This document shows, one piece after another, positions 5,689 to 44,943 of a stretch of 64,000 bases of DNA. Position 1 is the stretch's first letter. Each line of letters opens with the position of its first letter. A model generated the notes under the pieces. The model did not search any database. It saw only the letters and a list, made by a program, of their open reading frames with translations, and was not told the DNA's origin. Source of the DNA: Sphingobacteriaceae bacterium (GTDB taxonomy: Bacteria; Bacteroidota; Bacteroidia; B-17B0; Aurantibacillaceae); the NCBI GenBank assembly GCA_002319075.1, contig NVQB01000001.1:3038001-3102000 (forward strand). The letters are read 5' to 3'. Made by a program: the position numbers and the translations under genes.

Positions 5689-6609
5689 TTAATTGATCTC
5701 TAAAACAATTTTACCATTTATACCTCCGTTTGAAACGAGGTCCTGTGCAATAGCTGCGTCTTCTAATTTCATTACGCGCGCAATGCCTGGTTTTAATTTT
5801 CCTTCTTCCACAAGTTGTTTTCCGGAATCTAATTTTTGATAAGAAGGATTTGAAAAAACAAAGAGCGAAATTACGCCAGCTTTTTCAGAAAGTTCTGAAG
5901 AGAGAGCACTGACAATGCTTAAGAGGCGACCTCCCTTTTTTATTACCTCAAGCGATTTAAGCTGAGTTTCTCCACCAACGGTATCAGCAACCAGGTCTAT
6001 GTTTTTTACAAGTTTTGTAAAATCCTGTGTTTTATAATCAATCACTTCGTCGGCGCCCGATTTTTTTACAAGCTCCACGCCAGCGCCTGATGCAGTGCCA
6101 ATTACGTAAGCGCCTGCCAGTTTAGCCAATTGTACAATACTATTTCCAACAGCGCCTGCAGCACCGTGTACCAGCACCCTTTGGTTTTTTTGCAGATTAC
6201 CTTTTTCGAATAAAAGCGTATTGGCTGTGTTGATAGGAACGGCCAGCGCCACAGCATCGTTATACGATATGCTTTTTGGTTTTAGAGCTACCAGACTTTC
6301 TTTTACGGCTGCATACTCGGCGTAAGTTCCACCAAAGGTTGTACCAAAAACTTCGTCTCCGTTTTTTAGTCGCGTCACTTTAGAGCCAATAGCTTCTACA
6401 ATTCCAGCCAGATCAGAGCCCGGGATAAATGGAAAAGTAACAGGACTGGATTTTTGCATCAGTCCTGAGCGTACTTTCATGTCAAATGGATTAACGGTAG
6501 TTGCCTTTAGCTTCACGAGTACTTCATCTTCTTTTAAAATTGGTTTTTCGACTTCTGCTAATTTTAAAACGGAAGAATCGCCGTAAGTTGAAAATTGAAT
6601 GGCCTTCAT
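5689..6609 (-). CDS. NADP-dependent, zinc-independent quinone oxidoreductase-like MDR protein
   Basis: 306 residues, the normal size for the zinc-lacking branch of the medium-chain dehydrogenase/reductases. The N-terminal GroES-like part (residues about 1-120) carries NPFDMKVRSG and PGSDLAGIVE. The cofactor half has VLVHGAAGAVGNSIVQLAK (about 145-165), the glycine-rich nucleotide loop of this family, and no structural zinc cysteine cluster. Expected reaction: NAD(P)H-linked reduction of a quinone or enone in the cytoplasm; the substrate cannot be read from sequence. It starts 3 bases after the lipase stop, so the two are probably co-transcribed, and the shared terminator at 5634-5669 ends the unit. 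Confidence 0.88.
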   Translation of the reverse strand: MKAIQFSTYGDSSVLKLAEVEKPILKEDEVLVKLKATTVNPFDMKVRSGLMQKSSPVTFPFIPGSDLAGIVEAIGSKVTRLKNGDEVFGTTFGGTYAEYAAVKESLVALKPKSISYNDAVALAVPINTANTLLFEKGNLQKNQRVLVHGAAGAVGNSIVQLAKLAGAYVIGTASGAGVELVKKSGADEVIDYKTQDFTKLVKNIDLVADTVGGETQLKSLEVIKKGGRLLSIVSALSSELSEKAGVISLFVFSNPSYQKLDSGKQLVEEGKLKPGIARVMKLEDAAIAQDLVSNGGINGKIVLEIN

Positions 6610-17407: not shown

Positions 17408-17550
17408 GAACGTTTTTATCCCTTTTCTGTAATTTGCACAAAACTACTATTGTTTTCTGCTTCTCGTGATTCTATTATTGTTGTGGTTAAAAAATGCTAA
17501 ACATAACCCATTTATGGCATTCAAAAAAACCTGAATTAAAACAGAATCCC

Positions 17551-20500
17551 ATGGAAAAATTATTGAGTCTTAAAGGTTACCTGCAGTTAAATAAAATTGC
17601 AAAAGCCTTGTATCTAACCCTTCTACTTGCCGTTTTGAGTACTAAATCCTTTGGATACGGTATCGATCAAACCAGTTTCACGATTGATAAATGTACAGGA
17701 TATATCACGATAATTTACGCGGTACAAAACATCGGTTCCAGTGATGATGACTGGCTTACAGCTGGAAATCTTTTCTACAAAGATGTGAATAACAACTGGG
17801 TTCTTTTTCACAGTTATACAAACAATTGTAGCTCTAACAGTTGCTCAGGCGGGGGATCGGCAGGAGCAATAAATTATTTTTCAGGAGGGGTAACCCGCTT
17901 TAATGTTTCTTCGAGACCAGATGTTTATTTGAATCGGGTAGTTTTATATAACCGTCCTTCTGACATCAAGTACCCTTATGAATTCAGATTCGATTATTCA
18001 TGGGAAAACCATCAACAAACAACGCCCGACCAAACCGATAACAGTCCTTCCCATTACTCTTCTCCTATCTACCAGCAAACCATCGAAAAGCCCGATAACC
18101 TCACGGCATCAAACAATGTATGCGGGCAGGTAGATCTGGAATGGGAAAATCCATTTCAAACCTGGGAGGTTACCAATAGCTGCACAAATCAGACTTATCA
18201 GAATTTAATTTATAAAAACAATGTACTAATTGCCACGCTTCCTGGAGGTTCAACTAGTTTTACCGACTATACAGTTGCTGTTAATACAACGTATGACTAT
18301 AAGGTGAGGGCAGCTAACGTTAAAACTTTTTTTAGTATTTATAGTCTCTATTCTTCTATTGCAAACGGCGGATCAAAGCCATCGCCTCCGGCACCGAATA
18401 ATTTTGTTGCCACAGATAATTTGTGCAATAGCTCAATTGAATTGACCTGGGACTTTAATTATACCAGTCCAAAGGATTTTCTTATTAAGAGAAGTCTTGC
18501 ATTAAATGGAGTTTATACTACTATAGCCACCGTTTCTGCCAACGACAGATATTATTTAGACAATACCAATGTAACACGAGGTGTACAGTATTATTACGCG
18601 ATCACCTCGAGAAATACCTGCGATTACGAATCTGGTATCATCAAGACAAATGGCATTTCGCCGGTAGATCCCGCTGTGGCAACTAACCTGGTTCTTACTG
18701 CGGATGTGATCAATAATCAGTTTTTATTAAGCTGGACCGACAATGCTACCAACGAAGTTAAATATCAGGTGGAGAGACGTGATGATCAAAGTAACTCTGT
18801 AACATTTGATTTGAATGCAAACGCAACCTCTTATATCGATGATAATGTTTCGGCCTGTAAGGCTTACAGATATTACGTAAAAGTATTTTCCGGTTGCGTT
18901 CCTTCGGGTTTGGCTTCTGTGCCTACCGCCACGGCATCATTGCCGGTCCCCAACCTGAATACAACTTTTAACTCTGCAAAAAAACTTACTTGTTCGAAAG
19001 GCTATTTTGGAAATAGGGTAGAGCTGAGCTGGAGCAATAACAATGCTATTAATATTGACTTATTTAAAGTGTACAGGAAACAATTAGGAACAACGTTAGA
19101 TTCTGTGTTGATAGCTACATTACCAAGTAGCAGCGCGCTGTATATTGATAATACCGGCGATGCCCGTGTATTTTACCGTTACACGATTGTGGGAGCAAAA
19201 AATTGTTTGAATGTTGAATCCCTTACGAATATTTCCAGTGACATTGGTTTCCGCGATCCAACTGGTTTGGTAAGTGGTCATATTGAATACGCCGGTGGAA
19301 TTGCAGTGAGCGGAGCAAAAGTTTTTGTACAACAAAACGGCCAGTCGAGCGGAAATTCCTTGAGTTTTTCCGGTGGCTTGTTAACCGTTAGTGATAATGC
19401 CAGGTTAGAGCCGGGCGCACAAATGCGGATGGAGTTCTGGCTCAAACCCGATGGAAATAATGCTTCCTTTGTGGATAAGGCTAACGCTTTTTCATTTATA
19501 AAGTCAGGAACTAATTACCAGGCACAGGTATTCATTGGTGGTACGGCCAAAACTATCACAACAACAGCAGTCACTTCAAATCAATGGAACCACGTGGCGA
19601 TGGTATATGACGGTACTGCTTTAAAATTATTCGTGAACGGCGTCCTCTCGGCAACCGTGGCTGCGAGTGGTGATGTTACCGACAATTCCAGCAACCTTGT
19701 TTTTGGAAATGCTTTGTCTGCTTTTTTATTGGACGAGTTTCGTCTGATTGGCCAGGCGGCGAGCGATTCAGTTATAGCAGCGGAAGCTGGCAGGATTTTA
19801 AACGGTAACGAGACGGGATTCAAATGTAATTTACATTTTGATGAAGGCGTAGATTATTATGCTTATGACCCCTCAAAAGTTGGGAATGTATTTAATGCGA
19901 ATCACGGTGTGATGACAGGCTCTGTTGCGTGGAGTACTGATAAACCCACCTCTTCCCAATTAGGTTACTTCGGTGTAACGGATGCCCTGGGGAATTATTA
20001 CGTGTCGGGTATCAGATACACAGGTATAGGGGAAAATTTTAGTTTGGTTCCTTCTTTTCAAACGCACTCCTTCGCGCCAAATTCACGTTCGGTTTATATC
20101 GGCGACGCGTCTTACATTTATAATAACCAGGATTTTATTGACAACTCCTCTTTTCCCGTATCAGGAAGATTATTTTATAAAAATACTTCTTGTCCGGTAC
20201 CAGGAGCTAATTTAAAAATTGACGGTTCGGTAGTTATTTTAAATGGCCTGCCTGTTGTAACTGACGCCGCCGGCCTTTTCAGTATTACGGTGCCTATCGG
20301 AAATCACTTTATAACAGTAGAAAAAACTTCGCACGATATGGAAGATGGACGCTACCCGCCAATCGGTACTCATAATTTCCAGGCATCGGTATCCAACATC
20401 AATTTTGTAGATAGTACAACCAGAACACTAGTTGGTCGTGTGGTTGGTGGCTTAGTAGAAACCGACAAAGCACCGGGAATGGGACGCTCTGTTAATAATT

Positions 20501-23500
20501 TGGGCTCTGCCCGCATTAAGCTGGTGTCGCCCATTGCAGGAATTCCTTGCTTTTCAATTGTGGTGCAAACAAATAGCACAACGGGAGAATATTCGGCAAA
20601 CATACCTCCTTTACAGTACCGGATCGATTCCGCTTATGTAGTTACTAACTCTGTTGTTATCAATAAAAACAACTTAACCAACGCTAACAAGGTAATTGAT
20701 CTTACACAGGTAGGTGCCAGAACCACCGAGGTAGATACGCTTTTAGACAATCTGGGTGGTATTGTAAGTATTGATTCGGTTAAGTTTCACAGGCGCCTCG
20801 ACATGACTTACCGTATTGCTCCCTCAATAAATGTAACGAGGTTAGATGGCTCAACTTTTATTGGTGAAGACTCATTGTCTTTCGGATCGACGCGTTACAG
20901 TATAAAGCCAGTAGGTGCAGGCTGGGGAGATTTTGGATTTCCGGTATTTATGCAAGGCAAAACCTACAAAGCAAAAATACATGGAGCAGAAATTTACACC
21001 AATTCAGATAACGGCAATAAAGACACCGTAAGATTAAGCGGAAATGTTTTTGTAACTAATAATTTGGTTGACGGCGCAGATCCAAATCCCGTTGCACCAA
21101 TGACCAATGGTGTGGCCATCTACACATTTGTTTGTGGTGAGCCAAACAATGCTACAAACGCGCTTTTTCCGGCCTTAGATTATACCAAAGATATTCAGAT
21201 GGTTTTGGTTCCAGGCGGAGCAGCTTCTGTGGTATGGCGCCCGAACGCAGTACCCAATTCAGATTATCACGCTTATGTTTATGGACAAAAAATAACAGGA
21301 ACAGGCGTTTCAACACAGGGCCCTGAAAAAGTAGATTTTATTTTACGTGACCCTCCTGGCTCCGGAAGCTCCTCAAAATGGGGTACAGGAACTACCGTTA
21401 GTAACGTATCCAGTTATTCGAGAGGTGTTAGCCAGGAATCTGAAACTACAGTTTCTGTTTTGTTAGGTAAGCGGGCTTTAACCGGTGCGCTGGCTTATTA
21501 TGAAGCCATTGAAGTAGATAATACTGCCGGACTGGGCTTTAGCAATACTTACGCAAAAACAAAAGACAATACCTACACGGAAACCATGACTACCTATAAC
21601 ACGGTTTCTACAAGAGATGATGCGAATCATGTGGGTGCTCCCGCTGATATATTTATTGGACGCGCAAAAAACTGGCTCGTCGGACCAACTAACAATATCG
21701 AACTAAGAACTTCTGCAGCGTGTGCAGTAAGCGGTGCTTGTTTTGGGAACGTTGTAAACGGCTACCAGCTTGCAAAAACAGTAGGGTATGCCATTGCTCC
21801 AAATGGTGTAAGAACTCGTTTTTCATATACACAAGAAGAAATTGAAACCATTGTGATTCCAACTCTGGAAAGTATTCGTACTTCGTTTTTAGTAAACAAC
21901 ACTTCTAAATATACAACGCATCTTGCGGCAAACCATCCATTATTTGGAATAAATAATGATGATCCTTTATTGACAGTGAGATCCACAACAACGCCTGCTA
22001 TCTACGATCTTAGTGACACAACTGGAACTTCCTATACTGTGCGATGGTCAATTAGCAAGGATCTTACAAAAAATACAATTGACTCAGTAAGGGTGCTTAA
22101 TACACAAATAGCTTTATGGAAAAGAGCGCTGGCTCAAAACGAGCGTGAAAAATATATGTGTAAGAATAACGCCACAGGCGCAAGTCTTATTGATAATTTC
22201 ACCCTGGGCTCAGCTGTTGTTACAAGCGCCTATTCCGTAAATATGGATAACACAACTACCGAAACCTACGAACTGGCTCTCGGCTCTAATGCGAAAGCTA
22301 CGCTGGGTGCAGCTATCGGCGGCATAGGTTTTAAAGCAGATATTTCTTTAAGCGTATTTGAAACAAAAGGAGATGCCACTTCCAATGGTGTCACAACGTC
22401 TAATACGTTTGATTATACTTTAACGGATGGGGATCCTGGTGACATCATGAGTATTGATGTTTACAAATCTCCTGAAGGAACTGGAAACGTTTTTATTACA
22501 AGAGGTGGACAAACGATGTGTCCTTACGAGGATGCTGTTAACCTGCACTATTACAATCCTGCTAGTCCCAATGCAGAAATCGGTTCTCACTCTTACAATG
22601 CGGCTGGTTACTATGTGTTGGCAAATGCTACCGTACAACGTGAAATGCCCAACATTGTCATCACTCCCGCTATCCAGTATAATATTCCTTCTGCACAGGC
22701 TGCGTCTTACCAATTATTGCTTTCTAACCAGAGTCCTCTAACAGTTAACAACGATCTTAATTTAACTATTCGTGTGGCAAGTCAGAGTAACCCGAATGGG
22801 GCAGTATTAAAAATAGATGGCAACGATGCAAATACTACAGTAAACATTCCTTCTGGTGGTTCAGTTATTAAAACATTAACCATCGAACGTGGTCCTATCG
22901 AAATCGAATACGATAGTATCATGGTTATTTTTAGTTCAGTATGCAGCCAGGATATAGCAGACACGGCTTATGTAACGGTTCATTTTATTCCAACCTGCAC
23001 AGACTTGTCATTAATTAATCCAAGCAACAACTGGATCCTTAATAACGGTAACAACAATGTTGCCGATATACAGGTCTCCAATTATAATTACAATTACGGA
23101 ACGGCTTCTTACATCACCGGTACAACTACAACTATTTTAGGACTTAATAAGATCGGTATTGAGTTCAGACCGCTCAATTCTAATGTATGGACAGAGTTTA
23201 ACTCCTTCTACAAATATCCCGCAAGTGCTTTGCAAGACACTATTCCCAACAATCAGATTTATAGCGATTATAAGTGGAACATCTCCACCGTACCTGACGG
23301 CAATTATGAATTGAGAGCGCTGTCCTATTGTTTAAATAAAGATGCAAGCTTCTCAACCGTATCCTCGCCAATATTCGCCGGGATCATGGATCGTATCAAT
23401 CCTTCACCCTTTGGAACACCAACCCCTGGTGATGGTATTCTTGATCCTAACGATGATATTTCCATTCAGTTTAATGAGCCTATAGATATCAGCAGTTTAT

Positions 23501-26500
23501 CGGCGCTGAACTTTGACATAAGAGGAGTTTTAAATGGAGAAGCCATCAGGCATTCTGAAAGTCTTAATTTTAATGGTATATCAGGGTATGCTGAAGTTTC
23601 AGGAGGTGTTAGCATACAAAAACGCGATTTTACAATTGAGTTTTGGGCAAAATTAAATGCAACGGGTAGCGATCAGGTTGCCATAAGCCAGGGTGGAGAT
23701 CCTGTGCAAAACATGACCATTGGTTTTGATAATTCTGATAGATTCAGATTCACATTAGGAACGCAAACAGTAACCTCTGCTTCAGCTGTTTCCTTGCCGG
23801 GCGACTGGCACCATTATGCAGTAGTTTATGATTATACAGGAACAGATGCAAGTGTTTATATTGATGGGGCATTAGCAGGAACCAACTCTAACTTTACAAT
23901 TGATTACACAGGATCAGGAAAGTTGGTTTTTGGCAAAGCGATTCCGGCAAACAACCGTTTTTTAAACGGCAACTTGCACGATGTACGTCTTTGGAACAGG
24001 GCACGCTCTCTTTCAGATATTGTCATTACTATGAATAAAGTACTCAGCCGTAACCAGTCTGGTTTAGTGTATAACTGGAAAATGGATGAAGCAGACGGAG
24101 TAATTTCAGCGGATCATATAAGGTCCAGGAACGCTTCTGTTGTTGGCGCAACGTGGGAGGTAAATCCTAACGGAAATGCCGCACAATTTGATGGTAGCGA
24201 CGATAACCTGCAAATATCTTCCGGAAATATTACGCTCAATAAAGAAATGGATTTCACTCTCGAATTCTGGTTTAATTCTACACAATCAGGCGCGGCAACT
24301 TTATTCTCTAACGGTAAGGGCGATGGTGTAGGGGCAGATTCAACGGATTCGTGGAACATTCAAAAAGATGCGTCAGGTAACATTCACGTGTATCATAACG
24401 GTTTGGACTTTGTTGCAACTACCACAAATTATTTCAATGGCACCTGGCATCATTTCTCTTTAGTATTACAAAGAGGTGTTAACTTGTCGTCGTACATTGA
24501 TGGTAATCTTCAAAATTCTGTTCAGGCAGCACCATTCAAAAACTTATCGGGTTCTTATATGTATTTGGGAGCTCGTGGGTATTTTGCCAGCAACGTTATT
24601 AACTATGATAATTTTTATAACGGAAAGCTGGATGAATTCAGATTGTGGAACATATCCCGCAGAGCCGAACAGATTAAACGCGATAAACAGAACCGCATGT
24701 TGGGAGACGAATTTGGACTACAGGCATTTGTTCCATTTGAAAGTTATGCCATGGTTTTAGGAACGCCATCGCTAACCGCTACGTTTAATGACCAATCGGT
24801 GAATTCCCTTACTGTAAATGCACAAAACGGTGTGCAATCAATTAGTCAGACGCCAACAATTAAATTGCCACGTCCGGTACAGTCGGTTAACTATACCTGG
24901 TCTTTAAACAGCGATAAGATCATCTTAACCACAACTACTGCACCTGAACTAATCGAGAATGTAACCCTGGATATAACTGTGAAAAATGCCTACGACATGC
25001 ATGCTAACAGAATGCAGTCTCCAAAAACATGGATTGCATACATTAACAAGAACCAGGTAAAGTGGCAGGATGATCACTATGATTTTCAAAAAACAGTGGA
25101 TAGCACGATCACCTTTGTCGCACCAATTGTAAATACCGGTGGCGCATTAAAATCCTTTACTATTGCTGGTCTTCCGCTTTGGATGACAGCAAGCTCTAAC
25201 AGCGGAACCATAGCGCCTAACAGCGTACAATCTATTACTTTTACAATTCCTGCAGGTGGAAGCATTGGCGATTTCAATACAGACCTGACTGTTACAACCG
25301 ACTTTAATTATGCGGAGGTTTTACAGATCAATTTAAAAGTAAGAGGCATCGTTCCTTCCTGGTCAGTGAATCCTTCAGACTTTCAGTATTCTATGAGCAT
25401 TTTCGGGCAAATGAAAATTGATCATGTGATTGCTACGAATCCTGAAAATAAAATCGCAGCTTTTATCAATGGTGTTATCTGCGGTGTAGCCGATTTACAA
25501 TATGTTCCAGCTTACGACAGATATGAAGTGTTTTTAAGCGTTTACAGTAATACTATTACAGGCGACTCTATACGCTTCAACATTTATGATGCGGCAAGCG
25601 GTTTAACTTTTGTGAACGTAACGCCATTAGTAATGTTCGTTGAAAACGATGTGGTTGGTACAATTACAAGTCCAATTACTTTTACCGCAAATACGGAGAT
25701 TTTAAGAAAAATTCCTCTCAACGCGGGATGGACCTGGATTTCATTGCCTTTAGAATCTGCAAAATTACGCACGAGCAATTTATTGATGGCGAATCTTCAA
25801 TCCTCAACGGGTGATATAATAACAGGCACTTCCGACTATGATCAGTTCGATGCAAGTTCGGGATGGCTGGGGAATATTACACAGGGCGCAGGTTTTTTTA
25901 ATAACCAGTCTTATAAAATGAAAACAGCAAATGCCGATACGCTCATTCATATAGGAAGCCGTATTAACCCAGACTCAGCCTTAGCTACGATCAATGTTGT
26001 TCCGGGCTGGAACTGGATTGGGTATGTTTCAAATAAAAATGTGTTGGTAAATGAAGCTCTGGGAAATTACAATGCAGTTACCGGCGATTTAATTAAGAGT
26101 CAATATCAGTTTGCCTACTATGATAACTCCATCGGCTGGACGGGCAGTTTAACCCATATGAAACCAGCAATGGGTTATATGCTTCAGTCAGGTGGCATCA
26201 GTACATTTCATTATCCACTTTCAACATTTGTTGGAAGGCCGGTTTCAGAAAGCCAAATCATTGAACAGCAAGTTTTTCCTTTCACGCCTGAAGTATACGC
26301 AAACACTATGTCTGCAATACTTACAGGTAACATTTGTGCCGAAGCTTTAGATCAAAATAATCTTGTTATAGGAGCATTCGATGCTACTAATAGTTTAAGA
26401 GGGTATTCAAGCCCTGTGTTCAATGCTGCAACTGGTAAGTATAATTTTTATTTAACCCTCTATAGTAACACCGAGGGTGAATCTTTAAACTTAAACTATT

Positions 26501-26907
26501 TTAATGTAACGGATGGTTCCGTTTTACCAACGCATGAAGTTTTAACCTTTACTTCGAATGCTTTAAAAGGAAAACCAACAGCTCCTGTACTGGCAAACGT
26601 CGCAGACTCTCTGGCCTGCAGAGTGTCTGACATCACGGGTATAAGCGAGGTAAGTAGTGCTTCCGGAAACATTGGAGTCTACCCAAATCCTTTTACGGAT
26701 AACCTTACTGTTAGTTTCAATACAAGTGTTTCTGTAAAAGTAGAAGTGCTGGATGTATTGGGTAAAGTAGTTTATGTTACGAGCATAAAAAACAAACAAG
26801 AGCATACTATTAGTTTAGGGTCGGGTAACCCTATGTCTGCTGGTATGTATCTCCTGCGAATATCCGGTGATGTTAACAAGCAAGTCAAAGTAATTAAAAC
26901 AAAATAA
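17551..26907 (+). CDS. giant T9SS-secreted surface protein with laminin-G modules
   Basis: About 3118 residues from ATG 17551, which gives a signal peptide ending near KSFGYG; an in-frame ATG at 17494 would lengthen the N-terminus by 19 residues. Recognisable parts: fibronectin type III-like repeats (nt about 18080-18960); a laminin-G/concanavalin-like domain (19360-19760); a carboxypeptidase-regulatory-like domain (20150-20340); two more laminin-G domains (23560-24010 and 24170-24660), each with a W-H-H-Y/F-core such as GDWHHYAVVYDY; two copies of a module reading WSVNPSDFQYSMSIFG... IAAFINGVICG (25355-25690 and about 26280-26580); and a C-terminal type A sorting domain, VYPNPFTDNLTV to the end. 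It should be exported by T9SS and held on, or released from, the cell surface. Followed by the cadherin-type protein (19 bases) and PorP/SprF. Adhesin or glycan-binding is inferred from laminin-G. Confidence 0.92.
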   Translation: MEKLLSLKGYLQLNKIAKALYLTLLLAVLSTKSFGYGIDQTSFTIDKCTGYITIIYAVQNIGSSDDDWLTAGNLFYKDVNNNWVLFHSYTNNCSSNSCSGGGSAGAINYFSGGVTRFNVSSRPDVYLNRVVLYNRPSDIKYPYEFRFDYSWENHQQTTPDQTDNSPSHYSSPIYQQTIEKPDNLTASNNVCGQVDLEWENPFQTWEVTNSCTNQTYQNLIYKNNVLIATLPGGSTSFTDYTVAVNTTYDYKVRAANVKTFFSIYSLYSSIANGGSKPSPPAPNNFVATDNLCNSSIELTWDFNYTSPKDFLIKRSLALNGVYTTIATVSANDRYYLDNTNVTRGVQYYYAITSRNTCDYESGIIKTNGISPVDPAVATNLVLTADVINNQFLLSWTDNATNEVKYQVERRDDQSNSVTFDLNANATSYIDDNVSACKAYRYYVKVFSGCVPSGLASVPTATASLPVPNLNTTFNSAKKLTCSKGYFGNRVELSWSNNNAINIDLFKVYRKQLGTTLDSVLIATLPSSSALYIDNTGDARVFYRYTIVGAKNCLNVESLTNISSDIGFRDPTGLVSGHIEYAGGIAVSGAKVFVQQNGQSSGNSLSFSGGLLTVSDNARLEPGAQMRMEFWLKPDGNNASFVDKANAFSFIKSGTNYQAQVFIGGTAKTITTTAVTSNQWNHVAMVYDGTALKLFVNGVLSATVAASGDVTDNSSNLVFGNALSAFLLDEFRLIGQAASDSVIAAEAGRILNGNETGFKCNLHFDEGVDYYAYDPSKVGNVFNANHGVMTGSVAWSTDKPTSSQLGYFGVTDALGNYYVSGIRYTGIGENFSLVPSFQTHSFAPNSRSVYIGDASYIYNNQDFIDNSSFPVSGRLFYKNTSCPVPGANLKIDGSVVILNGLPVVTDAAGLFSITVPIGNHFITVEKTSHDMEDGRYPPIGTHNFQASVSNINFVDSTTRTLVGRVVGGLVETDKAPGMGRSVNNLGSARIKLVSPIAGIPCFSIVVQTNSTTGEYSANIPPLQYRIDSAYVVTNSVVINKNNLTNANKVIDLTQVGARTTEVDTLLDNLGGIVSIDSVKFHRRLDMTYRIAPSINVTRLDGSTFIGEDSLSFGSTRYSIKPVGAGWGDFGFPVFMQGKTYKAKIHGAEIYTNSDNGNKDTVRLSGNVFVTNNLVDGADPNPVAPMTNGVAIYTFVCGEPNNATNALFPALDYTKDIQMVLVPGGAASVVWRPNAVPNSDYHAYVYGQKITGTGVSTQGPEKVDFILRDPPGSGSSSKWGTGTTVSNVSSYSRGVSQESETTVSVLLGKRALTGALAYYEAIEVDNTAGLGFSNTYAKTKDNTYTETMTTYNTVSTRDDANHVGAPADIFIGRAKNWLVGPTNNIELRTSAACAVSGACFGNVVNGYQLAKTVGYAIAPNGVRTRFSYTQEEIETIVIPTLESIRTSFLVNNTSKYTTHLAANHPLFGINNDDPLLTVRSTTTPAIYDLSDTTGTSYTVRWSISKDLTKNTIDSVRVLNTQIALWKRALAQNEREKYMCKNNATGASLIDNFTLGSAVVTSAYSVNMDNTTTETYELALGSNAKATLGAAIGGIGFKADISLSVFETKGDATSNGVTTSNTFDYTLTDGDPGDIMSIDVYKSPEGTGNVFITRGGQTMCPYEDAVNLHYYNPASPNAEIGSHSYNAAGYYVLANATVQREMPNIVITPAIQYNIPSAQAASYQLLLSNQSPLTVNNDLNLTIRVASQSNPNGAVLKIDGNDANTTVNIPSGGSVIKTLTIERGPIEIEYDSIMVIFSSVCSQDIADTAYVTVHFIPTCTDLSLINPSNNWILNNGNNNVADIQVSNYNYNYGTASYITGTTTTILGLNKIGIEFRPLNSNVWTEFNSFYKYPASALQDTIPNNQIYSDYKWNISTVPDGNYELRALSYCLNKDASFSTVSSPIFAGIMDRINPSPFGTPTPGDGILDPNDDISIQFNEPIDISSLSALNFDIRGVLNGEAIRHSESLNFNGISGYAEVSGGVSIQKRDFTIEFWAKLNATGSDQVAISQGGDPVQNMTIGFDNSDRFRFTLGTQTVTSASAVSLPGDWHHYAVVYDYTGTDASVYIDGALAGTNSNFTIDYTGSGKLVFGKAIPANNRFLNGNLHDVRLWNRARSLSDIVITMNKVLSRNQSGLVYNWKMDEADGVISADHIRSRNASVVGATWEVNPNGNAAQFDGSDDNLQISSGNITLNKEMDFTLEFWFNSTQSGAATLFSNGKGDGVGADSTDSWNIQKDASGNIHVYHNGLDFVATTTNYFNGTWHHFSLVLQRGVNLSSYIDGNLQNSVQAAPFKNLSGSYMYLGARGYFASNVINYDNFYNGKLDEFRLWNISRRAEQIKRDKQNRMLGDEFGLQAFVPFESYAMVLGTPSLTATFNDQSVNSLTVNAQNGVQSISQTPTIKLPRPVQSVNYTWSLNSDKIILTTTTAPELIENVTLDITVKNAYDMHANRMQSPKTWIAYINKNQVKWQDDHYDFQKTVDSTITFVAPIVNTGGALKSFTIAGLPLWMTASSNSGTIAPNSVQSITFTIPAGGSIGDFNTDLTVTTDFNYAEVLQINLKVRGIVPSWSVNPSDFQYSMSIFGQMKIDHVIATNPENKIAAFINGVICGVADLQYVPAYDRYEVFLSVYSNTITGDSIRFNIYDAASGLTFVNVTPLVMFVENDVVGTITSPITFTANTEILRKIPLNAGWTWISLPLESAKLRTSNLLMANLQSSTGDIITGTSDYDQFDASSGWLGNITQGAGFFNNQSYKMKTANADTLIHIGSRINPDSALATINVVPGWNWIGYVSNKNVLVNEALGNYNAVTGDLIKSQYQFAYYDNSIGWTGSLTHMKPAMGYMLQSGGISTFHYPLSTFVGRPVSESQIIEQQVFPFTPEVYANTMSAILTGNICAEALDQNNLVIGAFDATNSLRGYSSPVFNAATGKYNFYLTLYSNTEGESLNLNYFNVTDGSVLPTHEVLTFTSNALKGKPTAPVLANVADSLACRVSDITGISEVSSASGNIGVYPNPFTDNLTVSFNTSVSVKVEVLDVLGKVVYVTSIKNKQEHTISLGSGNPMSAGMYLLRISGDVNKQVKVIKTK

Positions 26908-34759: not shown

Positions 34760-35401
34760 ATGTTTTCAGTCATTAAAAAAACCTTTGCCAAACGCACCAC
34801 TATTTCAGAGAAAGATGTAAAAAAAATTCTTTCTGCGCTTGAGGTGCGCCTGGTAAAACGCAAAAAGAACATACTTGATGCAGGTGATGAACCAGACTAC
34901 ATGTTTTTTTTGAACAAGGGTTTATTTCGTGGTTACATCTACGATGATCAGGGCGATGAACAAACTACCGATCTGATCTCGGAAGGCAATTGGTTTGGCG
35001 ACCTGAAAGCTTTTACAACGCAGAAAAAAGCAACTTTGTATCTGGAAGCACTCGAAGATAGTCAGGTGTTTTTACTAAGCAGGAAAGATATCTATCGCTT
35101 TTACGATGAAATTCCAATGTTCGAACGCTCGGTAAAACAAACTATGGAAAGCTATTATGTTAAGGCAATTGACAGGGCAAGAAAAATAAATTACGCCGGG
35201 CTGCATGCGCAAGACCGTTATAAAGAATTTGTGATGAAATGTCCTACACTCGAAAAACGCGTACCGGCCCTTTACCTCGCCTCTTATCTTGGAATTAAAC
35301 CTGAGACATTGAGCCGTTTACGACATCCGCACGAAAAAACGCAGGAATCTGCCTTAAATCATGAAAAAAAATTGAATGATGATCTAAAAAAGCAGGCATA
35401 A
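34760..35401 (+). CDS. Crp/Fnr-family transcriptional regulator
   Basis: 213 residues. The N-terminal half (about 15-130) is a cyclic-nucleotide-binding-type beta roll with ILDAGDEPDYMFFLNKGLFR and WFGDLKAF; the C-terminal half has a helix-turn-helix, PALYLASYLGIKPETLSRLR, as in Crp-like proteins. Only one cysteine is present (in KCPTLEK), so an FNR-style iron-sulfur cluster is excluded. The usual cAMP-pocket residues (RxS after the GE loop) are not evident either, so the ligand is unknown, as for most Bacteroidota members. Downstream are two promoters with perfect TTGAY-AAAT-RTCAA palindromes (35467-35480 and 38512-38525), the type of site such proteins bind; this protein is the natural candidate. 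Confidence 0.9.
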   Translation: MFSVIKKTFAKRTTISEKDVKKILSALEVRLVKRKKNILDAGDEPDYMFFLNKGLFRGYIYDDQGDEQTTDLISEGNWFGDLKAFTTQKKATLYLEALEDSQVFLLSRKDIYRFYDEIPMFERSVKQTMESYYVKAIDRARKINYAGLHAQDRYKEFVMKCPTLEKRVPALYLASYLGIKPETLSRLRHPHEKTQESALNHEKKLNDDLKKQA

Positions 35402-35466: not shown

Positions 35467-35533
35467 TTGATAAATATCAAGAACTTAAGTGCGATTAATC
35501 AATCAATTTATTGCCTTCGGGCTTTTATATTTG
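35467..35533 (+). promoter_or_regulatory. Crp/Fnr-type operator and -7 promoter element of the TonB receptor gene
   Basis: TTGATAAATATCAA at 35467-35480 matches the Fnr consensus TTGATnnnnATCAA exactly. A degenerate second site lies 22 bases further on (half-site ATCAA at 35498-35502), then TATATTTG at 35526-35533 fits TAnnTTTG. With a start near 35537 the sites centre at about -63.5 and -41.5. The usual -33 TTTG is missing, as expected if an activator is needed. Spacing is identical to the promoter at 38512. Confidence 0.75.
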
Positions 35534-35570
35534 AAACCACACACTGCAAACGGACCATCTTTAAACCTTT

Positions 35571-38399
35571 ATGAAAAAAAAATCTACCCTTAACTTTTTC
35601 ATCATAATTCTTTTTCTTGTTTGTGCACAGCAGTTCAAGGCTCAGGAAGTTACGGGAATTTTAAAAGATGCAAAAACAAATGAACCTGTTATTGGCGCTG
35701 TAATTGTTATCAAAGGAACCACGCAGGGAACCACCTCTGATCTGGAAGGTAAATTTTCTCTTATAGCACCTACGCTTCCTTTTACTTTAGCCATTACAAA
35801 CATCGGTTACATGACGCTGGAATATCCGGTGACCTCCCTCAACAAACCTTTGAATATAAAATTAAAATCGGATGAGGTTAACCTGGAGGAGGTGAGTGTT
35901 GTGGCACGCGGACTCACCGAAAAACAAAAAGAATCGCCTTTAACGGTGGAAGCGCTCGACGCCAATGCCATCAAAGCAACTTCTGCCGCCAATTTTTATG
36001 AAGGACTGGGCCAATTAAAAGGCGTGGATCTTACTGCAGCCAGTATAGGTTTTCGCATTATTAATACACGCGGCTTTAATAGTACTTCGCCCGTTCGCTC
36101 TTTGCAAATCATCGATGCGGTAGACAATCAATCACCAGGCTTAAATTTTTCGTTAGGAAATTTTTTAGGGGCATCAGAACTCGACGTACAGAAAGCGGAG
36201 ATCATTGTGGGTGCCAGTTCGGCTTATTACGGCCCTAACGCCTTTAATGGCGTAATCAGTATGGTCACCAAAAGTCCCTTTATTAAGCCCGGCATAAGCG
36301 CTTCCATAAAAGTGGGAGAAAGGAATTTGTTAGAAACTGCTATTCGTTACGCGGAAGTTTTTAAAAATAAAAAAGGAGTTGAAAAATTCGCTTTCAAATT
36401 CAACGTTTTTTATATGCAGGCTCACGATTGGGAAGCAACAAATTTAGATCCTATAACAGGTTCGGTAGATGGCAAAAATAATTGGGGTGGATATAATGCA
36501 GTAAACAGGTACGGTGACGAGATTGTTTACCGCGCTGTCTCTTCGGGTCAGCAAATTAATTATCCAGGCTTGAGAAATTTTTACAGAACAGGTTATGAAG
36601 AAAAAGACCTGGTAAACTACGATACTAAGAACATAAAGTTAGGCGCTGCTCTACATTATAAACTTAAGCCGGAAACAGAACTCATCTATGCCTTTAATTT
36701 TGGAACCGGTACAACGGTGTATCAGGGTGATAACCGTTATAGCCTCAAAGACATCTTATTTTTTCAGAATCGCATAGAATTAAAAAAGGCAGACAAATAT
36801 TTTATTCGCGCTTATTCTACAAACGAAGACGCGGGTAATTCTTACGATGCGGTTACTACTGCTATCCTGCTTCAGAACCGCTCACGAAGCAACGCCGAAT
36901 GGGGCGACAAAGCCTACCGGAATTATTACGCGTCCAATATCGTCTCCCAGGTAAAGGCACTTCCTGGTTTTCCTAAAATAGGTCCCTTTATTAGTCCGGG
37001 CAATCCAAACAATTATTATTATGATTATGCTGCAGCCGATGCGGTGATGGAGGCAAACTCTGATCTGATGCAGCAATGGCACAACCAGGCCAGGGCAAGT
37101 GCTGATAACGGCAGCGGTAGCCCATACCTTGTTCCCGGAACTCCTGAATACAAAGAAGCATTTAACGATATTACTTCAAAACCCCTGGGGCAGGGCGGTT
37201 CAAGACTCATAGATAAGTCCGGACTTTATCACATACATGGTGAATACAAGTTTACGCCCACGTTCATGAACATCACCACCGGCGCTAACTTCCGTTTATA
37301 CACTCCAAAATCGCAGGGAACTATTTTTAGCGACACGGGCAATGTAGTCATCACTACCTACGAGTATGGCTTCTACGCGGGACTTGAGAAAAAAGTAATG
37401 CAGGACAAACTAAAATTGAACCTCACGGGAAGAGTTGACAAGAACAAAAACTTTGATTTTATAGTCTCACCTGCAGCTTCAGGAGTTTACACGTTCAACA
37501 AAAATAATATCTTACGTCTCTCCCTATCGGCCGGCATTCGTAATCCAACTTTACAGGATCAGTACCTTTATTACAGTGTAGGTAACGCTATCCTCCTCGG
37601 AAATTTGAATGGCTACGATTCTTTGGTGACCATTCCATCCATACAGGATTATTATAGCAATGTAACAGTGGATAGAAACAAACTTTCCTATTTTAATGTT
37701 GCTAAAATAAAACCGGAGAAAGTAAAGTCTATAGAGCTTGGATATAGAACGACTATTTTTGACCGCATATTTATTGATGGAAGCATTTACTACAGTTTCT
37801 ACCAGGATTTTTTGGGTTACCAGGTTGGTGGCGATGTTAAATTTAATCCGGGAAACACTAACGAAATTTCAAGCATCCAGGTATACAGGATCGCTGCCAA
37901 TGCCACGAACATTGTTACTACGCAGGGTCTGTCCATTGGAGCGACTTATTATTTCAAAAAATATTTTTCTTTTTCAGGAAATTACAGCTACAACGAATTA
38001 AATAAAAAAGGAACCGACGATCCCATCATCCCTGCTTTTAATACGCCAAAGAATAAATTTAATATCGGTATTAGTGGGCGCGAAATAAAAGCAAGGATCC
38101 GGACTTCTTCAAAAGGCAAAGAAGAGCCTAAATATATTTCGCTTGAAGATTTTGGATTCAGCATCAATTATAAATGGGTGGAAGCTTATGATTTTACAGG
38201 TTCACCGCAGTTTTCGGGTTATGTTCCTACCTACGACATGCTCGATGCGCAGATCAGCAAATACGTTCCTAAAATTAAATGCACCTTTAAATTAGGAGCC
38301 TCTAATCTTTTAAATAACCAGAAGTTCCAGGTTTACGGTGGTCCGAAAATTGGAAGAATGGCCTATTTTTCTGTTTTGCTTGAACTCGACAGAAAATAG
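35571..38399 (+). CDS. TonB-dependent outer-membrane receptor with carboxypeptidase-regulatory-like domain
   Basis: 942 residues. Signal peptide ends QQFKAQ. Residues about 25-105 are the N-terminal CarboxypepD_reg-like domain (GILKDAKTNEPVIGAVIVIK), residues about 115-240 the plug (SPLTVEALDANAIKAT, LQIIDAVDNQSPG, ASSAYYGPNAFNGVISM), the rest a 22-strand-type beta-barrel with aromatic girdles, ending KFQVYGGPKIGRMAYFSVLL. Role: TonB-driven uptake of a large or scarce compound across the outer membrane; the substrate is not readable, and no susD-type gene follows, so it is not a classic Sus pair. Its promoter holds a Crp/Fnr palindrome shared with the next gene, 232 bases downstream, suggesting both serve one nutritional task. 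Confidence 0.93.
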   Translation: MKKKSTLNFFIIILFLVCAQQFKAQEVTGILKDAKTNEPVIGAVIVIKGTTQGTTSDLEGKFSLIAPTLPFTLAITNIGYMTLEYPVTSLNKPLNIKLKSDEVNLEEVSVVARGLTEKQKESPLTVEALDANAIKATSAANFYEGLGQLKGVDLTAASIGFRIINTRGFNSTSPVRSLQIIDAVDNQSPGLNFSLGNFLGASELDVQKAEIIVGASSAYYGPNAFNGVISMVTKSPFIKPGISASIKVGERNLLETAIRYAEVFKNKKGVEKFAFKFNVFYMQAHDWEATNLDPITGSVDGKNNWGGYNAVNRYGDEIVYRAVSSGQQINYPGLRNFYRTGYEEKDLVNYDTKNIKLGAALHYKLKPETELIYAFNFGTGTTVYQGDNRYSLKDILFFQNRIELKKADKYFIRAYSTNEDAGNSYDAVTTAILLQNRSRSNAEWGDKAYRNYYASNIVSQVKALPGFPKIGPFISPGNPNNYYYDYAAADAVMEANSDLMQQWHNQARASADNGSGSPYLVPGTPEYKEAFNDITSKPLGQGGSRLIDKSGLYHIHGEYKFTPTFMNITTGANFRLYTPKSQGTIFSDTGNVVITTYEYGFYAGLEKKVMQDKLKLNLTGRVDKNKNFDFIVSPAASGVYTFNKNNILRLSLSAGIRNPTLQDQYLYYSVGNAILLGNLNGYDSLVTIPSIQDYYSNVTVDRNKLSYFNVAKIKPEKVKSIELGYRTTIFDRIFIDGSIYYSFYQDFLGYQVGGDVKFNPGNTNEISSIQVYRIAANATNIVTTQGLSIGATYYFKKYFSFSGNYSYNELNKKGTDDPIIPAFNTPKNKFNIGISGREIKARIRTSSKGKEEPKYISLEDFGFSINYKWVEAYDFTGSPQFSGYVPTYDMLDAQISKYVPKIKCTFKLGASNLLNNQKFQVYGGPKIGRMAYFSVLLELDRK

Positions 38400-38511
38400 T
38401 TTTTTTCCATTTTAAAATTAATTTTTTTATCCGCCTGACGGAGAAAATCGAAAATACTCAACAAGAGAAGTACTTACAGCTTGTTTTGCTTAAAAAAGGG
38501 GAATGCCATTA

Positions 38512-38578
38512 TTGACAAATGTCAATAAGCAGACTGGTATTTGTCAATCAATTTATTCTCTGTTGTGAATTACATTTG
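38512..38578 (+). promoter_or_regulatory. Crp/Fnr-type operator and -7 promoter element of the esterase gene
   Basis: TTGACAAATGTCAA at 38512-38525 is a perfect palindrome of TTGAC halves around AAAT. TCAATCAATTTATT occurs 32 bases from the box start and TACATTTG (TAnnTTTG) at 38571-38578, 59 bases from the box start; both distances equal those at 35467. The half-site change T to C is matched on both arms and in the proximal half-site (GTCAA for ATCAA). Confidence 0.75.
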
Positions 38579-41976: not shown

Positions 41977-42702
41977 ATGAATTTAGTGCTTGATTTCGGT
42001 AATACACGCATCAAAACCGCTGTGTTTGAAGATACTACGCTTAAAGAGCAGCGTGTTTTTACCAGCGAAAACGAATTACTGGCTAATCTTGATTCTTTTC
42101 AAACTATTAAAAATTGTTTGATTGGTTCTGTAACAAATGACCACGCTAAAGCGTCTGAGTTATTGTCATCAAAATTTCAGACCATCGTGTTTAAAGCCAA
42201 TACCCCAATTCCTTTAAAGAATTCATATAAAAGTGCGTTGACCTTGGGTTCAGACCGCATTGCGGCTTCTGTAGGGGCCTGGGCGCTTTATCCTAATCAA
42301 AACGTTCTTACAATTGATGCCGGTACCTGTATTAAATACAACTTTGTAAACACCGATAATGATTACCTGGGAGGAGCCATCTCGCCGGGAATCCCAATGC
42401 GTTTAAAGGCTATGAACTATTATACACAGGCTTTACCGCTTGTGGAAGTAGACAAAAATTATGAAAAACTCATAGGTCAGACTACTGCCGAATCTTTATT
42501 GGGAGGAGCCTTATTGGCCTCTGCCTGCGAGGTAGATGGCATGATCGACCGTTATAACAATCAGTATAAAAATCTGCAGGTAGTGGTTACGGGTGGTGAC
42601 GCTGATTATTTGTGCAAACAACTTAAAAACCGTTTCTTTGCCGACCAAACTATTTTGCTGAGAGGCTTAAACACTATATTAAACTACAATCTTGAAAAAT
42701 AA
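41977..42702 (+). CDS. coaX: type III pantothenate kinase
   Basis: 241 residues, a normal size. The phosphate-binding start is LVLDFGNTRIKTAVF, the pantothenate/potassium region is ALTLGSDRIAASVGAWALYP, the second phosphate loop is LTIDAGTCIKYNFV, and GGAISPGIPMRLKAM plus VVTGGDADYLCKQL follow in family order. Reaction: ATP-dependent phosphorylation of pantothenate, the first step to coenzyme A, in the cytoplasm; this type is not inhibited by CoA. TATCTTTA six bases before the ATG suggests a very short leader. The next gene overlaps its end by 11 bases, a gene order (coaX, outer-membrane protein, lptC) that I recall from other Bacteroidota. Confidence 0.95.
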   Translation: MNLVLDFGNTRIKTAVFEDTTLKEQRVFTSENELLANLDSFQTIKNCLIGSVTNDHAKASELLSSKFQTIVFKANTPIPLKNSYKSALTLGSDRIAASVGAWALYPNQNVLTIDAGTCIKYNFVNTDNDYLGGAISPGIPMRLKAMNYYTQALPLVEVDKNYEKLIGQTTAESLLGGALLASACEVDGMIDRYNNQYKNLQVVVTGGDADYLCKQLKNRFFADQTILLRGLNTILNYNLEK

Positions 42703-44374
42703 GGCAAACATATTCCTGGTTTTTATCGCATTACTTCCGTTTTTAAGTCAGGCGCAAAACAATACTTTTAGTCCTTATTCCCGTTACGGTTTGGGAGAGC
42801 TTTCGCAGCCTACCTTTGCACACAATACAGGTATGGGTGGCGCGCATATTGCCTTAAAGCCCGATTCAACGATGCCGATTTTTATAAATGTGGGCAATCC
42901 TGCGTCTTATGCCCTCATTCGTTTAACCACACTGGAGGTAGGAGGAAGTTTTTTACACTCTACATTTAAAGGAAATAATAATACGAGTCTTACAAAATGG
43001 GGAACCAGTTTTGCCTATGGAGCATTGGGTTTTCCGGTAAGAAAAAACGGTGGCGCTGCTTTTGGCCTCATGCCTTTTAGCAGTGTGGGTTATGAAACGA
43101 ACACTACCATTAACCAGGAAAATATCGGCGCTGTTCAATACAAGTATTATGGCAACGGTGGCTTAAATAAAGCTTTTATAGGGTACGGCATATTACCTTT
43201 TAAAAACAAGTTAGCGAATTTCCGTTCTAAATATTCTTATTTGCCGGATTCTATGAGAACTCTTACCCGCGCGCAATATGTGCGTCGTCAACTAGTGAAT
43301 AAACTGGTGAGTGATTTATCTTTGGGATTTAACGTCAATTATATTTTTGGAAATGTGTCTAATAGCACCCGTATTGTTTATCCTAACTCTTTAACTTACA
43401 ACAACACTTACCGCGATCGCGTATTAACAGTGGGTGATTTTACCGGCAACTTTGGTGCACAAACCGGTGTTACTATTGACAGTACCCTGGATCACAAAGG
43501 CAGAAAAGCCAGGATCGCAGCCGAACTAAAAGTTCTAAGTGATCAAAACATGTATTCGAAAGCTAAATTAAAATTTATGGAAGATAGCATTGCTAGTGTC
43601 ACTAGATTCGATACGACTCTGGATAAAAAAGGCAAAAAAGCCAAAATTGCATCTGAAATTAAAATTTTAAGTGATCAGAATATTTATTCGGAAGCGCAAT
43701 TAAAAATGAAACGGGATAGTCTGGCGGCTGTGACGCCCTTATACCGCAGGGCCTACAAACAAAAACCTAAGTTCACTTTCGGGTACTTTATGAATCTGAA
43801 TAATGGTTTGAAATCAGATTATGTTACCGGTGTTTACAATTATGTGCTGAATGGTTCTGGCCAGGAAATTTTGCGCGATACTGTTTTATATCCTGTAAGC
43901 AAAGCCGGTACTATCCGTCTTCCACTTGAACAAGGTTTTGGCATTGGATTTAAAAAAGGAGAACGTTTAAACATGGTGGCAGATTTTGCTATAACCGACT
44001 GGACAACCTTTAAATACCTTAACGATCAAAATGATTTTAAGAAAAGTTACAGAGTTTCTGTGGGCGCTAATTTTGTTCCGGAGAAATACGCTGCAGGTAG
44101 AGGTTCTTTTGGCAGAAAAGTAAATTACCGCATAGGTGCTTCTTATCAAACCGGGTATTTAAGTATTGAAGACAATCTTATTTCTGATTATTCTGTGTCG
44201 TTGGGAATTGGTTTACCGGTTGGCATTAATCGTATCTCATCTATGGTGAATGTGAGTGCCCAATATGGTTTTATGGGTTCAAGCGATCCTAGTATACTTA
44301 AACAAAATTACTGGCGCGTTAATTTCGGTTTTACTTTTTGTGACCGATGGTTTCAGAAATACAGAGAAGATTAA
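42692..44374 (+). CDS. outer-membrane beta-barrel protein with an internal duplication
   Basis: 560 residues starting at TTG 42692; no ATG lies near the signal peptide (NIFLVFIALLPFLSQAQ), so the non-ATG start is well supported. The mature start FSPYSRYGLGELSQPTFAHN and many alternating strands point to an outer-membrane barrel. An inserted region (nt 43478-43738) consists of two 44-residue copies, STLDHKGRKARIAAELKVLS and TTLDKKGKKAKIASEIKILS plus flanks, rich in Lys and helix-forming. It overlaps coaX by 11 bases and lptC by 1 base, so translation is coupled. Its partner lptC suggests a role in envelope assembly, but the function is unknown. Confidence 0.82.
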   Translation: MKNKANIFLVFIALLPFLSQAQNNTFSPYSRYGLGELSQPTFAHNTGMGGAHIALKPDSTMPIFINVGNPASYALIRLTTLEVGGSFLHSTFKGNNNTSLTKWGTSFAYGALGFPVRKNGGAAFGLMPFSSVGYETNTTINQENIGAVQYKYYGNGGLNKAFIGYGILPFKNKLANFRSKYSYLPDSMRTLTRAQYVRRQLVNKLVSDLSLGFNVNYIFGNVSNSTRIVYPNSLTYNNTYRDRVLTVGDFTGNFGAQTGVTIDSTLDHKGRKARIAAELKVLSDQNMYSKAKLKFMEDSIASVTRFDTTLDKKGKKAKIASEIKILSDQNIYSEAQLKMKRDSLAAVTPLYRRAYKQKPKFTFGYFMNLNNGLKSDYVTGVYNYVLNGSGQEILRDTVLYPVSKAGTIRLPLEQGFGIGFKKGERLNMVADFAITDWTTFKYLNDQNDFKKSYRVSVGANFVPEKYAAGRGSFGRKVNYRIGASYQTGYLSIEDNLISDYSVSLGIGLPVGINRISSMVNVSAQYGFMGSSDPSILKQNYWRVNFGFTFCDRWFQKYRED

Positions 44375-44943
44375 TGATTAAGTCTTTGCGCATAGTTCTT
44401 TTTTTCTTTATCCCGGTAAGCATCGGGATTTTTTCTTCTTGCTCAAATGATCTTAAAGATGTGATGGCTCTTCCACGTAACGAGTTAAGTCCCTCTACTA
44501 TTGGCGACAGTGTTACGATGTTATATTCAGATACGGCACAACTAAAAATAATGCTTACGGCCAACCGTATGTTGTTTTTTGATAAGAATGTAAGCGAGCC
44601 TTTTAAGGTAATGCCAAAAGGATTTTTCGTAACTTTTTTTGATAAAGATGAAAAAGTTTCTGCTACTTTGCGGGGTAATTACGGTGTGAGTTACGATGTG
44701 AGCAACAAGATGGAAGCCAAATATGCGGTAGAGGTTGTAAATAAAGATGGCGTGAAACTAAATACAGAAAAGCTTATCTGGAATGCCAATACCCAAAAAA
44801 TTTATACCGACGCTTATGTGGTTATTACTACGGCAACGGAACAAATTACGGGCTATGGTTTAGAAAGTAACCAGGATTTTACCAAATACAAATTAAAAAA
44901 GATCAAAGCAATATTACAATTAAAAGACAATGAGCAGCAATAA
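44374..44943 (+). CDS. lptC: LPS export ABC transporter periplasmic protein LptC
   Basis: 189 residues from ATG 44374, whose A is the last base of the previous stop (TAATG). The N-terminus has a hydrophobic stretch and SSCS, a lipobox-like cysteine, so the protein may be lipid-anchored rather than simply membrane-spanned. The body has the LptC pattern: DSVTMLYSDTAQLKIMLTAN, PFKVMPKGFFVTFFDKDEKV, and the repeated beta-jellyroll text LRGNYGVSYDVSNKMEAKYA and LIWNANTQKIYTDAYVVITT. Role: passes LPS from the inner-membrane LptBFG complex to LptA in the periplasm. The next gene overlaps it by 14 bases. Confidence 0.9.
   Translation: MIKSLRIVLFFFIPVSIGIFSSCSNDLKDVMALPRNELSPSTIGDSVTMLYSDTAQLKIMLTANRMLFFDKNVSEPFKVMPKGFFVTFFDKDEKVSATLRGNYGVSYDVSNKMEAKYAVEVVNKDGVKLNTEKLIWNANTQKIYTDAYVVITTATEQITGYGLESNQDFTKYKLKKIKAILQLKDNEQQ

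Follow-up and report, generated by a model that had tools for sequence, protein, structure and literature searches.

We analysed a 64,000-nucleotide stretch of the genome of a Sphingobacteriaceae bacterium (GenBank assembly GCA_002319075.1, contig NVQB01000001.1, positions 3,038,001 to 3,102,000; hereafter the window), focusing on two promoters, one preceding a TonB-dependent receptor gene and the other a secreted esterase gene, and on a Crp/Fnr-family regulator (P0001, or the 34760 protein) encoded just upstream of them. Both promoters carry the same composite operator, in which a TTGAY-N4-RTCAA palindrome is followed at a fixed spacing by a degenerate second site and a -7 box, and this composite co-occurs with the regulator's family in recurrent gene contexts of other genomes. 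We consider it likely that the 34760 protein co-activates receptor and esterase via these tandem operators, with lipid-like esters as the most likely substrates; binding, activation, cooperativity and substrate are predictions drawn from sequence comparison. A sequence-only reading of the window had proposed a small regulon linking uptake to an extracellular esterase, and this proposal is supported by operator-regulator co-occurrence, by an FNR-type reading helix and by the lipid-uptake and esterase targets predicted for the regulator's relatives; the link of the regulator to receptor and esterase is probably real. The system is of an ordinary kind, a tandem Crp/Fnr promoter whose grammar is unusually clear and conserved, and with regulator, exact operator grammar and target genes predicted together it provides a ready test case.

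In the mechanism we propose, the 34760 protein, presumably a dimer by analogy with Crp/Fnr, would bind the strong TTGAY-N4-RTCAA operator about 64 base pairs (bp) upstream of each start, and the bound distal dimer would help another dimer to occupy the degenerate operator that lies 22 bp, or two helical turns, downstream, where, at the class II position beside the -7 box, it could recruit RNA polymerase. Receptor and secreted esterase would thereby be switched on together in response to some inducer, the esterase cutting fatty-acid or other lipid-like esters outside and the receptor importing a product. Lipid-like substrates seem most likely because relatives of the regulator stand before FadL and lipase genes beside beta-oxidation genes. 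FadR-type fatty-acid regulons show a similar co-control of fatty-acid uptake and degradation, although the regulator there is of the GntR or TetR type and here is a Crp/Fnr protein.

Operator architecture of the two promoters

Re-reading the letters returned exactly the positions and distances given by the sequence-only reading, with distal operators at 35467 and 38512, TCAATCAATTTATT beginning 32 bases after each of them (35499, 38544) and a TAnnTTTG -7 box beginning at 59 bases (Table 1). The distal sites had been called perfect palindromes, which holds for the arms TTGAY and RTCAA but fails at the central pair, an A-A mismatch that leaves 12 of the 14 positions symmetric. The second, degenerate site 22 bp away is present in both promoters with its right half intact, and the T-to-C change between the promoters does affect both arms of the distal operator and recurs in the proximal half-site. 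Its interpretation as co-varying operator evolution is unsupported because the C/G variant rests on one promoter; all eight composites found elsewhere read T/A/A, and single palindromes in the genome of the window (G000, 5.65 Mb; other genomes are labelled G001, G004 and so on) are often mixed C/A.

The description of the promoters as near-identical was borne out at 31 of 34 motif positions; elsewhere they agree at 14 of 33 positions in the intervals separating the motifs, at 14 of 60 on the upstream side and at 15 of 40 on the downstream side. Copying of the promoter by segmental duplication was considered and rejected, as there is little similarity beyond the motifs. The window promoters also share TCAATTTATT after the proximal site. 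A TTTC-like stretch (roughly GTnnTTTCnTAT, by eye) recurs between the operators in several of G001, G011, G090, G050 and G036, and is absent from the window promoters.

With the -7 box set at -12 to -5, as in the available part of PMC9723704, positions computed from sequence rather than from mapped starts place the eight composites of other genomes at -63.5/-41.5, the values that had been expected for the window, whereas the window pair itself lies at about -64.5/-42.5. By sequence, this fits a tandem class II layout, with one operator near -41.5 and a second site upstream on the same face, and by eye no TTG lies 17-19 bases before the -7 box in either window promoter. The class II position is calibrated by another Crp type, encoded at 82139 in G000, whose single palindrome stands at offset 36 from the -7 box in four genomes. 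The window promoters are likely tandem and activator-dependent; the strong site would serve as anchor, and the weak site at the class II position would be filled cooperatively.

Table 1. Features of the regulator, receptor and esterase locus, in window coordinates
Feature	Coordinates	Strand	Basis
Short Crp/Fnr-family regulator P0001, 213 amino acids, helix KPETLSR; predicted activator of both promoters	34760..35401	+	
Distal operator, receptor promoter, TTGATAAATATCAA	35467..35480	+	Sequence, composite search
Proximal degenerate operator, receptor promoter, GTGCGATTAATCAA, right half (ATCAA) intact, 22 bp on	35489..35502	+	
-7 box TATATTTG, receptor promoter	35526..35533	+	Consensus TAnnTTTG as in the available part of PMC9723704
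TonB-dependent receptor P0003, 942 amino acids	35571..38399	+	Pfam TonB_dep_Rec_b-barrel 1e-20, Plug, CarbopepD_reg_2
Distal operator, esterase promoter, TTGACAAATGTCAA	38512..38525	+	Sequence, composite search
Proximal degenerate operator, esterase promoter, CTGGTATTTGTCAA, right half (GTCAA) intact, 22 bp on	38534..38547	+	
-7 box TACATTTG, esterase promoter	38571..38578	+	
Secreted alpha/beta-hydrolase esterase P0002, BD-FAE family, type IX secretion tail, 521 amino acids	38631..40196	+	Pfam BD-FAE 1.7e-13, Por_Secre_tail 1.4e-12

The composite operator and its regulator family

The palindrome TTGAYNNNNRTCAA alone is unremarkable, as the window holds two against 0.63 expected and 11 of 100 shuffles hold at least two. 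Genome-wide, G000 has 64 palindromes against 25 for the same pattern reversed (the control throughout our pattern searches), and 33 of the 62 of known place fall between called open reading frames (ORFs); it therefore seems that this genome makes use of the motif as such. A search of G000 for a palindrome followed 40-50 bases on by TAnnTTTG, of the kind that the sequence-only reading had recommended, recovered the window pair among three sites, but the reversed control also gave three. Chance, meaning that AT-rich DNA yields palindromes and -7 boxes, would account for both this tie and the palindrome count of the window, yet it is barely credible for the full composite (palindrome, N16-18, RTCAA, N20-25, TAnnTTTG), which gave seven matches in 5 of the 87 whole genomes of our family survey against none for the reversed control in all 87, and whose N17 spacing is fixed across all composites. 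The window pair are the only two full composites in G000.

When spacing was left free (gaps of 8-25 and 10-35, 468 combinations) over 1.43 Mb of locus DNA, overlapping loci included, all ten distinct composites had N17, followed by N22 in eight and by N23 in the window's two. Three of the ten (one in G011, two in G036) had entered through the pattern search; the other seven had not, and one of them lies in DNA reached by extending a locus that had been fetched by protein. In one G036 composite both sites are full palindromes, spaced by 22 bp, and since its proximal site is itself a full Crp-type operator, this composite suggests that the degenerate proximal site elsewhere may be a weakened operator of this type.

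The composite tracks the regulator family across genomes. Close relatives of P0001 (matches at E<=1e-40) occur in 5 of the 87 genomes, namely G001, G011, G072, G090 and G000 itself, and composites are present in G000, G001, G011, G090 and G036, an overlap of four genomes (Fisher p=1.1e-5). G072 has a close variant of the composite (N18, and a -7 box with one mismatch), which overlaps the regulator's stop codon; G036 has one composite immediately after the gene of a different ETLSR Crp and a second about 2.7 kb further; and G050, from another family, has three composites around an ETLSR Crp of its own. In this last locus (L263, G050:C3:384000-396000, minus strand) the composites start at 5950, 5188 and 2650, all are N17/N22 with one short Crp, and by eye they precede genes resembling NAD(P)-binding protein, YceI and DoxX.

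Among short Crps with an ETxSR helix, a class picked after seeing the data and including P0001 and two relatives, 6 of 11 have a palindrome within 150 bp of the 3' end of their gene, compared with 0 of 37 others (p=3.8e-5); division by any Glu at the helix position gives 6 of 35 against 0 of 13, which is not significant (p=0.17). ORFs not fitting the helix expression (e.g., L021 and L028) and duplicates were dropped before the helix-class count, and the dropped L028 holds an ETLSR Crp whose gene is followed, about 35 bp on, by a palindrome, a case that would have favoured control by the 34760 protein. TTGAY palindromes just past the 3' end of ETxSR-helix genes suggest a route to target assignment for other short Crps. 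It is conceivable, though we would lean against it, that the ETxSR short Crps of Bacteroidota share a fixed grammar (TAnnTTTG preceded by a full palindrome centred at -63.5 and by a weakened one at -41.5, exactly 22 bp from the first) acting as a cooperative switch, and that regulator and operators were here rewired as a unit, having first served a FadL/lipase/beta-oxidation operon and now serving a TonB receptor and a secreted esterase.

Pfam assignments around the relatives give the gene contexts. The operator stands before a DUF2147 gene in four of four cases (G001, G011, G072, G090), followed in G011, G072 and G090 by FadL-family and then GDSL-lipase genes; G001 has no FadL or lipase gene after DUF2147. 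In G072 a secreted type IX secretion system (T9SS) BD-FAE esterase comes next, 36% identical to P0002 over 279 residues, and in G011 operator and regulator are on different contigs. Also near the relatives are genes for acyl-CoA dehydrogenase (G001, G090), thiolase (G001, G011), 3-hydroxyacyl-CoA dehydrogenase (G011) and an acyl-CoA-binding/thioesterase protein (G072, G090). Judged by these FadL, lipase, esterase and beta-oxidation contexts, the predicted theme of the relatives' loci is therefore fatty-acid and ester uptake and breakdown. Within G000, tblastn over the stretches examined gave no match for FadL or GDSL; its one DUF2147 match lies close to Crp genes, at about 870 kb.

The identification of a Crp/Fnr gene just upstream of the promoters was upheld, with P0001 having a CRP/FNR fold and an FNR-type reading helix by Pfam, profile and structure model. 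The N-terminal barrel matches Pfam cNMP_binding (PF00027) at 1.9e-14 (53.8 bits against a cut-off of 27.5). P0001 has no Pfam match for a helix-turn-helix (HTH), yet a profile built from ten short Crps has an alignment that extends across the HTH both of PDB 3dn7, which it matches at full length (E 1.7e-48), and of Aliivibrio fischeri FNR, whose ETISR is aligned to the ETLSR of P0001. An AF2 (AlphaFold2) model of P0001 has a predicted local distance difference test (pLDDT) score of 89.9 and helices at 150-188, and its best Foldseek match is again A. fischeri FNR (template modelling (TM) score 0.78 over 203 columns). P0001 has one cysteine, at residue 161 of 213, in place of the N-terminal [4Fe-4S] cysteine cluster of FNR-type proteins, and is therefore not expected to carry an FNR-type iron-sulphur sensor; the NCBIfam Fnr model scores it at 23 of 228 bits, far under the cut-off. 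By eye, its FGD-KAF has no obvious Arg when set beside the phosphate-binding cassette of cAMP-CRP, in which a Glu and an Arg are conserved. At the window's 35327-35401, 25 residues follow LSRLR in P0001, a C-terminal extension, compared with about 8-12 in its four relatives.

P0001 thus resembles FNR (E. coli / A. fischeri) in fold, ETxSR helix, TTGAT-N4-ATCAA box and class II position, and differs from it in lacking the N-terminal cysteine cluster, in having tandem sites 22 bp apart and in its lipid/ester-type neighbours. The short Crp-like 3dn7 ("cyclic nucleotide binding regulatory protein") is similar in size and C-terminal HTH, but has PEYLSE where P0001 has PETLSR. In E. coli FNR, Glu209, Ser212 and Arg213 are the main contacts to the FNR box according to the available part of PMC4505428, and in that of PMC1274295 replacement of Arg180 by Ser or Pro goes with TTGAC-type motifs; in P0001, Pro precedes the Glu of the reading helix. 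The same available part of PMC1274295 gives TTGACnnnnGTCAA and TTGATnnnnATCAA, a feature in common with the present system, as motifs of the FNR-like nitrogen-oxide regulators HcpR1 and DNR, whose targets are nitrogen-oxide genes, whereas the predicted targets of P0001 are uptake and esterase genes. In the available portions of the open-access literature, our search found no paper on a P0001-type regulator or a 22-bp tandem FNR arrangement in Bacteroidota, and no target for P0001-type proteins there.

Alternative regulators and points against the proposed link

The main competing explanation, which we consider unlikely, is that the sites belong to a global FNR-like regulator of 231 amino acids encoded at genome position 4288243 (helix KENLVR), with the neighbouring Crp being incidental. 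The 4288243 protein could itself occupy the distal sites of the window. All 11 genes of its type (at least 52% identity, nine genomes, query included) are preceded by TTGAYAWWTRTCAA at a distance of no more than 100 bp, the distal site of the receptor promoter is identical to the 14-mer at 4288035 near the 4288243 gene, and the palindrome is common to this second FNR-like regulator and to other short Crps in G000. The examined stretches around those genes, however, contain no composite, G036 and G050 have composites but only approximately 33%-identical, longer homologues of the 4288243 protein, and most of the ten composites have a short-Crp gene no more than a few kb away. As for the global regulator itself, the upstream sites in orthologues of eight other genomes suggest that it may autoregulate; TTGAYAWWTRTCAA has 14 sites in G000 against 0 in the control, while in several other genomes control matches are as numerous as real ones. 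By sequence reading, the 4288243 protein is encoded near genes resembling cbb3-oxidase assembly genes, and its nearest NCBIfam model is Fnr, below cut-off. Five TTGAYAWWTRTCAA sites surround 4288243 in locus L093 (G000:C1:4275600-4295500), at 4277721, 4283376, 4287754, 4288035 and 4288973.

Less probable still is that the 34760 protein represses by covering the promoter, since the class II spacing and the missing TTG at the -33 distance (by eye), which are hallmarks of activator-dependent promoters, fit activation, and the distal site is the stronger of the two; in favour of repression, the proximal site adjoins the -33 region, and a dimer sitting there could keep polymerase off the promoter. 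We give only a slim chance to another ETxSR short Crp of G000 (82139, 2982720, 3517252, 4206822 or 4549910) acting at the sites, alone or through cross-talk. These proteins have the same helix class, and a palindrome lies past the end of three of the five genes, but the 82139 type uses a single class II site rather than the composite in G000, G026, G007 and G033, and the composite tracks P0001 relatives instead. G000 has 25 matches to P0001 at E<=0.01, some of them partial. In four genomes (loci L115, G000 82067-82675, and L237, L238 and L239), the gene of an ETLSR short Crp has a single palindrome past its end, exactly 36 bases before TAnnTTTG, and then comes a small gene of similar sequence, as in a classic class II promoter.

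Several observations weigh against control of receptor and esterase by the 34760 protein, besides the sharing of its palindrome with other regulators and the tie with the reversed control when the proximal half-site is dropped from the search. For the 14 other genomes whose receptor match reaches E<=1e-150, the stretches examined (G012 being partial, with the receptor start outside the stretch) have no palindrome in front of either gene and, by tblastn, no relative of P0001. G105 and six named relative loci at 57-65% identity are likewise without the palindrome before either gene and without a P0001 relative (L231, a seventh locus with 28%, did not enter this operator check), and the wiring of receptor and esterase to the operator is seen in G000 only. 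The uptake protein in the relatives' loci is FadL, not a TonB receptor, and NCBIfam gave only sub-cut-off matches for the receptor and assigned it no substrate. Finally, the G001 relative (L113 8046-8591) has no start codon and has Lys for Glu in its helix, with the composite intact; it looks like a decaying regulator, or another Crp may use its site.

Palindromes in the orthologue stretches do occur at other places (in G038, in G046 and, within the receptor gene itself, in L225), as do look-alikes with one or two mismatches at scattered positions. The simplest reading is that operators and regulator may have been gained together on the G000 lineage, a single event, and therefore their co-occurrence in G000 alone carries little statistical weight. 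Receptor and esterase genes are adjacent in 11 other genomes (60 searched, own included), in G004 and G005 with convergent orientation, a point in favour of a shared function for the two proteins. Co-activation of both genes by the 34760 protein, the explanation we prefer, points to a lipid-ester scavenging role for this conserved pair.

Other features of the window

Elsewhere in the window, overlapping genes for BamG-family and LptC-family proteins (42692-44374 and 44347-44943) form a single run, to which a type III pantothenate kinase gene lies upstream, and a 3137-amino-acid open reading frame spans 17494-26907.

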